Source of the DNA: Phycisphaerae bacterium RAS2
Lineage (GTDB): Bacteria; Planctomycetota; Phycisphaerae; UBA1845; UTPLA1
Direction: 5' to 3'
NCBI GenBank assembly: GCA_007753915.1
Contig: CP036352.1
Location: forward strand, 558,001 to 622,000
Length of the DNA stretch: 64,000 bases
Made by a program: the position numbers and the translations under genes. Numbering within the stretch: the stretch's first letter is position 1; each line of letters begins with the position of its first letter. The notes beneath the pieces were generated by a model. It was given only the letters and a program-made list of their open reading frames with translations. It made no database searches and had not been told where the DNA came from. Below, one piece after another: positions 26,124 through 61,651 of the stretch.

Positions 26124-26135
26124 GAGTGGCTGGTA

Positions 26136-26177
26136 GTCAGTGGTCAGTGTTCAGTGGCCAGTTGTTCGTGGTCAGTG
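26136..26177. repeat. Six tandem degenerate heptamers (GTCAGTG)
   Basis: Exactly six 7-bp units in register: GTCAGTG, GTCAGTG, TTCAGTG, GCCAGTT, GTTCGTG, GTCAGTG. It starts 12 bp upstream of the serine acetyltransferase start. No inverted partner or cargo gene is visible, unlike the arrays in the atp operon. Confidence 0.7.
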
Positions 26178-37926: not shown

Positions 37927-38005
37927 ATAAAAATCAAAAAGTCAAAACGTCCAAAAGTCGAAATCTCGGAAAAGGAATCCGCGCGCGGTTTGTCAATTTT
38001 TGGGC

Positions 38006-55987: not shown

Positions 55988-56025
55988 GACCCTCACCGCG
56001 GCCCTCTCCCTTTGAGAGGGAGAGG
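55988..56025. repeat. Dispersed hairpin repeat, copy 3, inside the atp operon
   Basis: CCCTCACC then CCTCTCCCT/AGGGAGAGG, the inverse orientation of the copy at 29040, filling the atpF-atpH gap. The hairpin sits between two cotranscribed genes, so it is unlikely to be a full terminator. Confidence 0.75.
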
Positions 56026-56040
56026 AAGTTCAGGGCAGGC

Positions 56041-56643
56041 ATGGCAACGGAATACGACATCACATCAGCAGCCGCGGCGGTCTACGCCGAGAGTTTGCTG
56101 GAACTGGCGCGCGAAGCGGGCAAGGCCGACGAGATTGCCGACGAATTGTCGCAATTGCTCGCCCTGGGGAAGAGCCACCCGACGTTCGCGGCGATGATGC
56201 ACTCGGCGGCGCTCGACGACGACGCGCGGCGCGGGATTCTCCAGCGGATGTTCGCCGGCCGGGTCAACCCGCTGGTGCTCAATCTTATGCTGGTCCTGAA
56301 CGACCGCCAGCGGTCGCATATTTTCAGGCAAGTCTGTGCCGCGTACCAGCGCAAGCTGGACGAATCGGCCGGTCGCACGGCGGTTTATGTTTCGACCGCT
56401 GTCGCGCTGGACGACGCGGCGCGGTCGCGCGTCCGCGATGAAGTTCGCCGGTTGACGGGGTTGGATTCGCGGTTTGAAGAGCGTATCGATCCCTCGATCC
56501 TCGGCGGGTTGATCGTGCAGGCGGGCGATCGGTTGTACGACTATTCCGTGCGTCGGCGGCTGCACGACCTGCAGCATCGATTGCACGAGACCATGAAGGA
56601 ATCGTTGGTCGGCGGCGTATCGAAGTTTGTGACACAAGGATAA
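56041..56643 (+). CDS. atpH: ATP synthase F1 subunit delta
   Basis: 200 aa. [20 protein letters not shown] at the N-terminus and the C-terminal [26 protein letters not shown] match the delta (OSCP) family that joins the stator stalk to F1. Standard length. Seven bases separate it from atpA. Confidence 0.9.
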
Positions 56644-56650
56644 ATCGCAC

Positions 56651-58309
56651 ATGAAGATTCAGGTTGACGAAATTGCCTCCGTCCTCAAGCAGGAAATCGC
56701 GAACTACCGCGAGCACCTCGAAGCGGCCGAAGTTGGGCGCGTCATCACCGTCGGCGACGGCGTCGCGCAGATCTACGGCCTCTCCAGCGCGATGGCCGGC
56801 GAGATGATCGAGTTCGAGAACGGCGCGATCGGCCAGGTGATGAACCTGGAAGAGAACTCCGTCGGCGCGGTCGTGCTCGGTGACTACCTCGGCGTGAAGG
56901 AAGGCAGCACGGTCAAGGCGACCGGCAACCTGTTGAGCGTGCCCGTCGGAGATGCCCTGATCGGTCGCGTCGTCGATCCGCTGGGCCGGCCCATCGACGG
57001 CAAGGGCGCCGCGACGTGCAGCGAGCGCTGGCCGTTGGAATACGCCGCGCCGGGCATCGCCGAGCGCCAGCCCGTGAACCAGCCTCTGCAGACCGGTATC
57101 AAGGCGATTGACAGCATGATTCCGATCGGCCGCGGGCAGCGCGAGCTGATCATCGGCGACCGGAAGACGGGCAAGACGGCGATCGCGATTGACGCGATCA
57201 TCAATCAGCGCGACACAGGCGTGATCTGCGTGTACGTCGCGGTCGGCCAGAAGGAATCGACCGTCGCCGGCACGGTTGAGAAATTGCGCGAGCACGGCGC
57301 GATGGATTACACCATCGTTGTGTCGGCCGCCAGCAGCGACGCCGCGCCGTTGCAATACATCGCGCCCTATGCGGGCTGTGCGATGGCCGAGTACTTCATG
57401 TACAAACACGGCAAACACACGCTGGTCATCTACGATGACTTGTCGAAGCAGGCCCAGGCGTATCGCCAGTTGTCGCTCCTGCTGCGTCGCCCGCCGGGTC
57501 GCGAGGCCTACCCCGGTGACGTGTTCTATTTGCACAGTCGTTTGCTGGAGCGCTCCTGCAAACTGGCCGAGCGCCGGGCGATCGTCCCCGCGGGTCAGCC
57601 CTACAAGGCAGGCGGTGTCAACAACAAGACCTACATCGGCGTTCCGGGCAAACATGAGTCCGAGCACGACGTGAAGAATCACGCGGGGCATGCCGTCGTG
57701 GTTGATCCGACGTCCGGCGGTTCGCTCACGGCGCTGCCGGTGATTGAAACGCTGGAAGGCGAGGTGTCGGCGTACATCCCGACCAACGTGATCTCGATTA
57801 CCGACGGCCAGATTTACCTTGAGCCGGACCTGTTCTTCGCCGGTGTGCGACCCGCGATCAACGTCGGCATCTCGGTCAGCCGCGTCGGTGGCAACGCGCA
57901 GATCAAGGCGATGAAGAAGATCGCCGGCTCGCTGCGTCTGGACCTCGCGGCGTATCGTGAACTCGAAGCGTTCGCCCAATTGGGCACGGACCTCGATGCC
58001 GCGACGCAGCGCCAGCTTGACCGCGGGGCGCGCATGGTGGAGCTGCTCAAGCAGGGCCAGTTCAAGCCGTACAACGTGATCAACGAAGTCATCAGCATTT
58101 TCGCCGGGTCGAAGGGCTTCCTCGACGACCTGCCGATTTCGCAGGTGGCGACGTTTGAAGAGCAGATGCTCAAGTTCGTGCGCGACGAGCACCCGGAGTT
58201 GCACAAGGAACTGACGGACAAGAAGGAACTGACCGACGCGATCGACGCGAAGCTGAAAGAAGTCATCGCGGCGTTCAAGAGTCGATTCGTTTCTGCGAAC
58301 AAGAAGTGA
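56651..58309 (+). CDS. atpA: ATP synthase F1 subunit alpha
   Basis: 552 aa, about 40 longer than E. coli. Non-catalytic nucleotide site [28 protein letters not shown], and the Arg of [17 protein letters not shown] are intact. An extra loop (about 313-357, [19 protein letters not shown] through the [12 protein letters not shown] part) replaces a short connector before [12 protein letters not shown]; it lies where the F1 head faces the solvent. A further short Lys/Glu-rich extension ends the chain. Start is ATG 7 bp after atpH. Confidence 0.95.
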
Positions 58310-58319
58310 TGTGGAGCCG

Positions 58320-58347
58320 TTAGCTTTTAGCCATTAGCCTTGAGCCA
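58320..58347. repeat. Left heptamer array of four-helix cassette 1 (TTAGCCN)
   Basis: Four tandem 7-bp units, TTAGCTT, TTAGCCA, TTAGCCT, TGAGCCA, starting 10 bp past the atpA stop. They are inverted relative to the GGCTAAN array at 58758-58792. The preceding bases AGCCG plus the first units match the left arm of the empty element at 25040. Confidence 0.85.
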
Positions 58348-58368
58348 GATGCGAGTAAGTCGGCGCAC

Positions 58369-58770
58369 ATGCAGGATTTTCGCAAGCTTCTGGTTTGGCA
58401 AAAGGCAAGAGACTTGGTTGCTGATGTTTACCGATTCAGTGGTCGGTTTCCGAAAGAGGAGTTATACGGTCTAACGCCCCAGGTGCGTCGAGCAGCAGTA
58501 TCCATCGCAGCCAACATTGCCGAGGGACGAGGGAGCGGGACAGACAAGGCGTTCGGCAGATACCTCCATTTAGCAATGGGGTCTGCCTATGAACTCGAAT
58601 GCCACTTGATCATTGCAGGCGACCTTGGGTTCATTCCAACGGAAGCAGTGGAGCGACTGGCAGGAAGTATCGCGGAAGTACGGAAGATGATAAACGCTCT
58701 CATTCAGACGCTACGAAGCACGGACCAAGGCGAGGACCAAGGTTCTCGAACGATTCAGGCTAATGGCTAA
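58369..58770 (+). CDS. Four-helix-bundle (S23 / bAvd-like) protein, cassette 1
   Basis: 133 aa with the classic signature of the 23S-rRNA-intervening-sequence family: FRKLLVWQKARDLVADVYRF, FPKEELYGLTPQVRRAAVSI, AANIAEGRG, then LHLAMGSAYELECHLIIAGD. Proteins of this fold include bAvd of diversity-generating retroelements; most have no known role. It lies between atpA and atpG in operon direction, where no gene belongs. Its stop codon is inside a heptamer array, giving the tail RTIQANG. Local composition is visibly less GC-rich than atpA and atpG, suggesting acquisition. Confidence 0.88.
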   Translation: MQDFRKLLVWQKARDLVADVYRFSGRFPKEELYGLTPQVRRAAVSIAANIAEGRGSGTDKAFGRYLHLAMGSAYELECHLIIAGDLGFIPTEAVERLAGSIAEVRKMINALIQTLRSTDQGEDQGSRTIQANG

Positions 58771-58792
58771 GGGCTAAAGGCTAATGGCTAAG
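58758..58792. repeat. Right heptamer array of four-helix cassette 1 (GGCTAAN)
   Basis: Five exact-register units: GGCTAAT, GGCTAAG, GGCTAAA, GGCTAAT, GGCTAAG. The array contains the stop codon of the four-helix gene (58768-58770), a purine-rich ribosome-site candidate (AAAGG) and the atpG start codon (58784). Inverted partner of 58320-58347. Confidence 0.9.
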
Positions 58793-59689
58793 GCACGACA
58801 AATCGTCAAACGCCGCAAAGCGGTGACGAACATTCGCAAGATCACCAAGACGATGCAGCTCATCGCCACCGCGCGCTTTCAGCAGGCCTACAACCGCGCC
58901 GTCGCCACCAAGCCTTACACCCAGAAGATCACCCAACTCGTGCAGGAGCTTTCCGCCGCCACCGCCGGGCAGATCGACCACCCGCTGATGCGCGAAAACC
59001 CGGACGCGGCGAAGGATGTCGCGCTGGTCATCACATCGAGCCGCGGTTTGTGCGGTGGGTACAACTCCAGCATCCTGCGCAAGGCCGTGGTGCAGCTCGA
59101 TTCGGGCAGCGCGCGAACGCAGGAGCTGGTCGTCGTCGGCAAAAAGGGCAACGCGTATTTCAAGTTCATCCGGCGGCCTGTGACGAAGGCGATTACCAAC
59201 ATCGACGATCGCCCGCGCTTCGAGCAGGTCGAGCCGATCGCGGCCGAGTTGATGCAGCGTTACATCGCGGGCGAGATCGGTCGCGTGACGGTGACGTACA
59301 TGCGGTTCATCTCGACCGGCAAGCAGGCGGCTGAGACGGTTCAACTCTTGCCGTTGTCAGCGGACGTTGCGTCGGCGCAGAAGCCCGGCGCACCCGCTTC
59401 CGCAGCCGCGGCGAGTGGGGCCGGATCAACCGTGCAATACGATTTCTCGCCCGAGCCGGAGGCGCTTTTGAAGGTGCTGCTGCCGCAGACGGTAAAAGTG
59501 CGGTTGTACCAGTGCTTCACCGACGCGGCGGTGAGTGAGCAGGTCGCGCGCATGGTCGCGATGAAGGCGGCGACGGACGCCGCCGGTGACATGATCAAGT
59601 CGCTGTCGCAGTCTTTCAATCGCGCGCGGCAATCGCAGATCACGATGGAACTACTCGACATTGTCGGCGGCGCAGAAGCGCTGAAATAG
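58784..59689 (+). CDS. atpG: ATP synthase F1 subunit gamma
   Basis: 301 aa. The N-terminal MAKARQIVKRRKAVTNIRKI and C-terminal SFNRARQSQITMELLDIVGG coiled-coil ends of the rotor shaft are intact, with VALVITSSRGLCGGYN typical of gamma. A short Ala/Gly/Pro-rich insertion (about 203-222) is present. The start codon lies in a heptamer array. Flanked by two four-helix cassettes instead of directly by atpA and atpD. Confidence 0.94.
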   Translation: MAKARQIVKRRKAVTNIRKITKTMQLIATARFQQAYNRAVATKPYTQKITQLVQELSAATAGQIDHPLMRENPDAAKDVALVITSSRGLCGGYNSSILRKAVVQLDSGSARTQELVVVGKKGNAYFKFIRRPVTKAITNIDDRPRFEQVEPIAAELMQRYIAGEIGRVTVTYMRFISTGKQAAETVQLLPLSADVASAQKPGAPASAAAASGAGSTVQYDFSPEPEALLKVLLPQTVKVRLYQCFTDAAVSEQVARMVAMKAATDAAGDMIKSLSQSFNRARQSQITMELLDIVGGAEALK

Positions 59690-59699
59690 TGGTGGAACT

Positions 59700-59727
59700 G
59701 CGAATGGCGAATTGCGAATAGCGAAGG
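59700..59727. repeat. Left heptamer array of four-helix cassette 2 (GCGAATN)
   Basis: Four tandem units, GCGAATG, GCGAATT, GCGAATA, GCGAAGG, starting 11 bp after the atpG stop. Inverted relative to the CGCTATT array at 60146-60173. Same 7-bp period as cassette 1, different consensus. Confidence 0.88.
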
Positions 59728-59770
59728 GAGCGATGAAATCGCTGCAGTCGGCGATGCGGAAGGTCACGCG

Positions 59771-60139
59771 ATGGTTCAGGCATCGAGCCGTTCGGGGCGA
59801 GACATTGAGCGGCGTACATTTGAGTTTGCTGTTCGTATCGTCAAAATGACTCGGCAATTGCCGAAGGACATGATGAGTCAGGTGGTAGTTCGACAACTGG
59901 CGCGAAGTGGAACCAGTGTCGGCGCCAATGTTGAAGAAGCCCAGGGATCTCATTCGCGTGCAGAATTCGCACGGAGGATGGGAATCGCCAGATCAGAGGC
60001 GCGAGAGACGCATTACTGGCTTCGCCTTCTCGCCGCATCCGGAACTGTAAAGGCCAGTCGTCTGGAGCAGATAATTCAGGAATCTGAAGAGCTTGTCAGA
60101 GTCCTGACCGCGATAGTGAAGAAAACGCGAAATGCCTAA
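59771..60139 (+). CDS. Four-helix-bundle protein, cassette 2
   Basis: 122 aa, a different subfamily from cassette 1: RTFEFAVRIVKMTRQLPKDM, VVVRQLARSGTSVGANVEEA, ARRMGIARSEARETHYWLRL. The QLARSGTSVGANVEEAQ motif corresponds to the second-helix signature of S23-like four-helix proteins. GGAAGG lies 7 bp upstream of the ATG. Located between atpG and atpD in operon direction and enclosed by inverted heptamer arrays. No enzyme residues are visible; a small RNA- or protein-binding helical bundle is the reasonable guess. Confidence 0.8.
   Translation: MVQASSRSGRDIERRTFEFAVRIVKMTRQLPKDMMSQVVVRQLARSGTSVGANVEEAQGSHSRAEFARRMGIARSEARETHYWLRLLAASGTVKASRLEQIIQESEELVRVLTAIVKKTRNA

Positions 60140-61651
<1,512 letters not shown>

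Follow-up and report, generated by a model that had tools for sequence, protein, structure and literature searches.

Inverted heptamer arrays enclose four-helix-bundle IVP genes in the atp operon of Phycisphaerae bacterium RAS2 and suggest a widespread family of small mobile elements

Genes of the S23/23S_rRNA_IVP four-helix-bundle family (IVP) have, to our knowledge, no established function. Among the closest described systems are the intervening sequences (IVS) of 23S rRNA carrying an S23p ORF, which have the protein family and the inverted, pairing ends in common with the elements analyzed here. The Coxiella IVS possesses a 28-bp stem with tandem GACAGAT heptamers upstream of the ORF and is cleaved by RNase III (PMC4990558); these tandem heptamers strengthen the likeness to 23S intervening sequences proposed in an earlier note on the present DNA. 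Unlike the 23S IVS, our elements are located between protein genes, namely atpA/atpG and atpG/atpD, they possess their own repeat units, occur in many phyla, and have gene-less copies elsewhere; a closing stem, predicted here from RNA folds, is a feature of both systems.

A similar layout is known from REP/BIME sequences and their RAYT genes (IS200/IS605-like, Y1), where one gene-bearing unit is accompanied by numerous short intergenic arrays or hairpins that match it in sequence but lack the gene. Dispersed gene-less copies were found here as well, but the unit contains no Y1 HUH gene: IVP is a four-helix bundle, tandem heptamers with a TYAG core form the ends, and the unit varies with the protein lineage. 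Furthermore, the arrays resemble published heptamer repeats, which also consist of 7-bp units, are largely intergenic, and are of unexplained origin; the cyanobacterial STRR is another such repeat. TAACTGA repeats occur in Beggiatoaceae, cyanobacteria, and Bacteroidetes (PMC4679880), GGGAATC and GGGGA(C/T)T repeats in Xanthomonas and Nostoc (PMC4692102), with four units being preferred in xanthomonads and 70 and 75 inverted pairs present in two genomes (PMC4692102). With respect to heptamer spread, the author of PMC4679880 states that "no mechanism is evident", one of the two papers places the heptamers generally apart from mobile elements, and the term "four helix" is absent from the main text of both. 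Among the matches listed from the open-licence literature, no paper beyond that on the Coxiella IVS linked heptamer arrays to IVP genes.

The window, i.e., the whole stretch of 64,000 nucleotides analyzed here, harbors two IVP genes, and all features described in the following are located on its + strand. Element 1 lies between atpA (56651–58309; TIGR00962) and atpG (58784–59689; TIGR01146) and consists of a left arm of tandem TTAGCCN heptamers (58315–58346; lag-7 score 13), the gene IVP1 encoding 133 aa (58369–58770; PF05635 7.4e-35, TIGR02436 2.8e-34), and a right arm of tandem GGCTAAN heptamers (58758–58791; lag-7 score 21). The left array reads AGCCG TTAGCTT TTAGCCA TTAGCCT TGAGCC and the right array, inverted to it, GGCTAAT GGCTAAG GGCTAAA GGCTAAT GGCTAA. 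The gene had been described as enclosed by these arrays; arrays are indeed present on both sides, but the last codons of the IVP1 ORF are located inside the right arm, and this arm runs into the atpG start codon, the region of which supplies the last heptamer (ATGGCTAAG). Element 2, overlooked in the earlier note, is built from a different heptamer and precedes atpD (60185–61651; TIGR01039). It comprises a left arm of tandem GCGAATN heptamers (59695–59725; lag-7 score 16), the divergent gene IVP2 encoding 122 aa (59771–60139; PF05635 1.1e-23, TIGR02436 4.2e-28), and an inverted right arm of tandem ATTCGCN heptamers (60144–60173; lag-7 score 15). The window contains five arrays with a lag-7 score ≥13, four of which are the arms flanking the two IVP genes. 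In 60 order-1 simulations of the 64 kb, such arrays numbered 0.12 on average and 2 at most.

Both genes passed the family cut-offs, with 119.8 bits (IVP1) and 83.9 bits (IVP2) for PF05635 (cut-off 33.8) and 117.6 and 97.7 bits for TIGR02436 (cut-off 24). Profile matches were confined to PF05635/bAvd and related four-helix models, with bAvd below its cut-off. The GC content of IVP1 is 0.527 (0.53 for the IVP genes in general) as compared to 0.63 in the atp genes, confirming the low GC content noticed before, and its GC3 is 0.52 as compared to 0.83–0.85. The elements are not located inside a 23S rRNA helix, and a search of positions 56000–61000 with Rfam gave no match. In the predicted RNA folds the two arms pair with each other and form the closing stem of element 1 as well as of element 2, with z-scores of −2.72 and −4.24, respectively. 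In element 1 the atpG start is part of the right arm and would be paired in this stem, so that an effect of the element on translation of atpG is plausible.

The complete genome (G000) consists of one contig of 4.32 Mb, is 97% complete, and contains three IVP genes in all. The third one (L005, G000:C1:2913340) has an array upstream and an array within the reading frame and does not form a pair by our rule. It belongs to a longer IVP relative with an in-frame heptamer array inside the gene (SNLKSEISNLKS in L005, HLKSEISNLKS in L048), which was found in two families of the order and looks vertically inherited.

IVP loci were collected from four sources: relatives, GTDB genomes with one taken per species (80 loci), viral contigs (43 loci), and cyanobacterial plasmids. 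IVP/S23 genes are common, being found above the cut-off in 157 of 200 relatives. A pair was scored by script when arrays of one period were located on both sides of the gene and inverted to each other. Inverted pairs were detected at 158 of 210 IVP genes with usable flanks, as compared to 12 of 1011 positions drawn at random from these loci; a stricter threshold left 151 of 210 and 8 of 1011, respectively. The counts are not independent of phylogeny, and the loci were mostly best-scoring matches. Apparently, such arrays recur at other four-helix genes, as the earlier note had expected, and 59 of the 210 genes lack a pair at the stricter threshold. At this threshold, pairs were present at 54 of 85 IVP genes of the GTDB loci as compared to 5 of 318 other genes of 90–250 aa, at 57 of 75 genes from relatives, 28 of 37 from viral contigs, 7 of 8 from the own genome and the atpG loci, and 5 of 5 from plasmids. 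Judged by their titles, the GTDB loci include Planctomycetota, Chloroflexi, Bacteroidota, Acidobacteria, and Gemmatimonadetes. Two loci belong to archaeal Methanophagales; L112 has no pair by the rule and L135 is located at a contig end. Array–gene–inverted array is the anatomy of these elements.

The period of the 158 pairs was 7 in 135 cases, 8 in 19, 6 in two, and 9 in two, one of the period-6 pairs (L246) being a trinucleotide run rather than a heptamer array. The arms had a median length of 4.6 units with a range from 2 to 37, and 145 of 302 arms contained four full units. According to simple ORF calls, IVP genes with arrays were in sense with co-directional neighbors in 72 of 90 cases and those without arrays in 26 of 32; the sense bias is therefore not special to arrays. 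Carriage by phages was rejected, as IVP1 had no match in 50,697 phage records and 43 IVP loci were obtained from 2.9 million viral contigs.

The heptamers are diverse, with 90 distinct five-base cores in 130 elements, and have a polar core, which is NNTYAGN when the array is read inward from the 5′ side of the gene (T 56%, pyrimidine 74%, A 71%, G 93%). The information of the core amounted to 2.62 bits as compared to ≤1.95 bits in 20 permuted sets, and in a five-fold cross-validation the left-arm strand scored better than its complement in 116 of 130 elements. Unit similarity reached 0.645 at an IVP identity of 0.6–0.8, whereas 1000 permutations gave a mean of 0.465 and a maximum of 0.508; it was 0.646 in 117 pairs without flank homology. 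For IVPs less than 45% identical within one genome it remained at background (0.45–0.47), pairs >97% identical being left out of this comparison and examined separately. Furthermore, periods 7 and 8 are distributed on the IVP tree with 13 changes, whereas all of 300 shuffles needed ≥14, and 10 of 18 octamer elements had an octamer nearest neighbor, as compared to 2.1 expected and 11 as the largest value of 2000 shuffles. Unit and period are therefore inherited with the IVP lineage. Since they follow the IVP protein, the arrays are neither copies of the target nor a property of the genome, but go with the gene; derivation of the arrays from the target was rejected as a general rule, the units tracking the IVP lineage at unrelated sites. 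As the simplest reason for this match of unit and protein we infer cognate recognition. The two arms match at the level of the unit, and the variable bases are not mirrored (4 of 134 above the 95th percentile of a unit-shuffle null). This argues against a perfect stem maintained by co-varying arms, and recognition unit by unit fits better than selection for a perfect duplex.

The extent of homology was analyzed with the 151 elements, which gave 161 pairs with an IVP identity ≥60% involving 69 elements. Enough flanking sequence and detectable DNA homology were available for 122 pairs. Homology extended >150 bp beyond an outer arm end in 19 of them; in the other 103 it never exceeded the outer arm end by more than 15 bp, which, as this set is defined by the 150-bp limit, means that no homology ended between 15 and 150 bp. 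In most of the 103 pairs homology faded inside the element; it approached the outer end to ≤40 bp in 23 pairs (left side) and 21 pairs (right side). In several pairs (L154/L139, L221/L201, L221/L209) it ended 0–2 bp from the outer ends on both sides. What unrelated sites have in common ends at the arrays.

Recent copies within one genome were scarce: in the six genomes taken, three same-genome pairs with ≥85% identity were found, and additionally one tandem pair in a viral contig. L070 and L231, both from genome G074, encode proteins that are 85% alike and have unrelated left flanks; CAGAAGG-type arms are, by eye, common to both, L070 not being scored as a pair by the rule and the right side of L231 being a contig end. 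As to the other two same-genome pairs, one is located in apparent paralogous host genes, and L093/L246 is not bounded by heptamers. Transposition was rejected for L239/L241, whose host genes appear to be paralogous, and for the twin plasmids L174/L175, where the alignment continues past the element on both sides.

Occupied and empty sites were compared in atp operons and on cyanobacterial plasmids, the latter giving two more such sites. Among 30 atpG loci, IVP1 is present at atpA|atpG in G000 only. The one other genome of the genus searched (G001), with an atpG 92% identical, lacks both IVP genes of the atp operon but keeps the right array at atpA|atpG, so that gain in G000 and loss in G001 are indistinguishable. 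By eye, Nostoc edaphicum carries an IVP element between nrdB and nrdA which is lacking in Calothrix NIES-4105, and Calothrix PCC 7716 carries one between two secretion genes which is lacking in two NIES-4105 plasmids; Nostoc N6 and Aulosira show heptamer remnants at the latter spot. Inspection of these filled and empty sites by eye revealed no target-site duplication, the pairs being diverged.

The reading that we favor, with a probability of roughly 0.6, is that both atp elements belong to a widespread family of small mobile elements, in which IVP recognizes cognate arrays and which is accompanied by gene-less satellites. The idea of a mobile unit ending in heptamer arrays gains from the survey and the homology limits; the neighboring copy at atpG|atpD behaves differently. 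Occupation of the same site in distant relatives had been named beforehand as an argument against mobility, and this is what was found for IVP2: an IVP2-type gene is present at atpG|atpD in 7 of the 30 atpG loci scanned, distributed over two families (G000, G007, G008, and G014 from four genera of the own family; G031, G055, and G058 from another one), and also in a third family of the order (G074, locus L234). These proteins are mutual nearest relatives, and the closest IVP found elsewhere is 44% identical. IVP2 and the G008 copy are 68% identical in protein sequence with a dN of 0.25, dS not being computable. All eight loci of this subfamily (window 59695–60173, L011, L014, L020, L023, L029, L035, and L234) possess inverted arrays; their units differ, mostly with a GAAT core (GCGAATN, AGAATTN, GGAATNN, GTGAATN; TGCAAAN in G014), and at each locus both arms changed together. 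G011 retains a short gene-less GCGAAT remnant at atpG|atpD. Judged from these sequences, the atpG|atpD copy looks like an old resident with many losses during long residence; repeated homing to one site may be an alternative.

Residence at one site over three families is compatible with a conserved function and with an old insertion alike. It could accordingly be imagined that the unit is a resident regulatory cassette, in which IVP binds the heptamers in RNA and the arrays, next to its gene as well as elsewhere, are binding sites kept for control of translation or processing. The conservation of IVP2 with both arms kept alike agrees with this idea, and so does the location of the atpG start codon in the right arm of element 1, the pairing partner of the left arm; translational control was also proposed in 2015 for TAACTGA repeats upstream of start codons in Beggiatoaceae (PMC4679880). 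However, array–gene–array units occur at unrelated sites with homology confined to the unit, and they are patchy at orthologous sites, so that we regard a purely regulatory cassette as unlikely. Regulation may be a secondary role of the arrays.

Gene-less arrays were searched in the whole G000 genome. Three tandem GCGAATN units (≤2 mismatches) gave 71 matches at 32 sites as compared to 0 with the reversed pattern, and three TTAGCCN units (≤3 mismatches) gave 47 matches at 18 sites as compared to 6. Apart from the elements' own sites, 31 GCGAATN and 17 TTAGCCN sites remained, none of them at an IVP gene. Fifteen gene-less sites were read; many directly follow the end of a gene, and some are single arms, others hairpins. 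The published heptamer repeats look like gene-less products of IVP elements. Additionally, array density was determined in 20-kb pieces from ten IVP-rich genomes, ten IVP-zero genomes, and the own genome. In 346 kb of the IVP-rich genomes, 21 heptamer and 11 octamer arrays were found, a few of which are G-runs or GC-rich sequence, as compared to 1 and 0 in 321 kb of the IVP-zero genomes; the own genome contained 11 and 5 in 400 kb. Arrays with period 6 (12 vs. 4) and 9 (21 vs. 6) were also more common in the IVP-rich samples, and the dependence of arrays on IVP is a correlation over 10 and 10 sampled genomes. G001, whose only IVP gene has octamer arms, contained 3 heptamer arrays in 800 kb, with 2 GCGAAT and 0 TTAGCC sites as compared to 4 and 2 in 400 kb of G000. 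No tandem copies of its octamer unit were found in these 800 kb, and G000 contains octamer arrays without an octamer IVP; the match of unit and IVP is thus not absolute.

A gene together with gene-less hairpins is also the layout of REP/RAYT systems, and a Y1/HUH transposase might move the hairpins in trans, with IVP as passenger or helper. Y1_Tnp was indeed detected in 22 of 22 genomes searched, with 8 matches in G000. These genomes include all 10 sampled IVP-zero genomes, which are almost devoid of arrays, and unit and period of the arrays follow the IVP protein. A Y1 transposase as sole cause was therefore rejected; as it is present with arrays or without, it may help, but does not explain their distribution. 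Movement by such an enzyme is, in our view, a shade less likely still than the regulatory cassette.

Ordinary tandem repeats generated by slippage, or G-quadruplex tracts, at which IVP genes land by chance, are very improbable. The copy number does vary, with arms from 2 to 37 units, and formation of G-quadruplexes in vitro was described for such repeats (PMC4692102). However, periods 7 and 8 are prominent in the vicinity of IVP genes and in genomes that contain such genes, the arrays are inverted with fixed polarity and travel with the gene, and many units lack a G-run, the most frequent number being four units nonetheless. Least probable of all is a retroelement in which IVP takes the part that Avd has in diversity-generating retroelements, a reverse transcriptase being provided in trans. 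A distant likeness of IVP1 to Avd (NF033474, 24 bits with a cut-off of 80) speaks for this idea. Against it, RVT_1 gave 0 matches in the whole G000 genome, one contig with dozens of arrays, and none in the IVP-rich G165, so that reverse transcription is unlikely to be needed.

For the mobile element family favored here the following mechanism can be proposed. The elements span ~450–500 bp, with about 4–5 tandem heptamers read inward, the IVP (S23) gene, and the inverted array. The IVP protein would recognize its cognate array, present as single-stranded DNA or RNA, probably as a ring of five subunits with one unit bound per subunit. The solved structures of the IVP homologues 2gsc and 2rld contain five chains each, 2gsc being the IVP protein XCC0516, which by its tag is presumably from X. 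campestris, and Avd forms rings of five; a pentamer binding about five units is therefore favored. The model of one repeat per subunit is borrowed from TRAP, an RNA-binding ring of 11 subunits that binds evenly spaced NAG repeats with 5-nt spacing, one per subunit; we know of no homology between TRAP and IVP. Neither a catalytic site nor a binding assay is known to us for IVP, and cutting or copying may be supplied by host enzymes. IVP would then promote the spread of the segment between two arrays, or of a lone array, into intergenic sites. In transcripts the paired arms would resemble the stem of 23S intervening sequences, the site of RNase III cleavage, and insertion inside an operon could thus be tolerated.

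We know of no mobile element that combines ends of this type with such a protein, and of no regulator whose sites spread in this way; hence, we rate the IVP unit as a new kind, and the 23S IVS would be one special form of it. The intervening sequence of the Coxiella 23S rRNA looks like an example of an IVP element. A far-reaching version, a new class of mobile element in which a non-enzymatic ring protein reads its own arrays of 7 or 8 nt, one unit per subunit, and spreads the arrays or the enclosed segment, with 23S intervening sequences, cyanobacterial STRRs, Xanthomonas GGGAATC, and Beggiatoa TAACTGA repeats all being its products, is put forward tentatively; it is possible, but we consider it doubtful in this generality. 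Once IVP and the dispersed heptamers are tied to one element, it becomes directly testable where the repeats originate, what the protein family does, and whether 23S intervening sequences are mobile. A ring protein reading tandem repeats one unit at a time, with a sequence specific to its lineage, would, if confirmed, also represent a new system of nucleic-acid recognition.

Some further arrays were observed. A lone heptamer array of the GTGGTCA type is located at positions 26133–26177 of the window, away from all three IVP genes of the genome. A lone octamer array is located at 37929–37971, and octamer arrays recur in the sample of the own genome without an octamer IVP gene having been found. 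L155 possesses extremely long heptamer arms on both sides of its IVP gene, with lag-7 scores of 170 and 179. In L102 (Flavobacterium) the array beside the IVP gene scores best at period 5, with a longer compound repeat. Within 20 kb, L109 (Candidatus Chloroploca) contains a large number of AGGTNTC arrays and hairpins; several of these are read through in frame inside long ORFs, one of which shows, by eye, DNA methyltransferase-like motifs.
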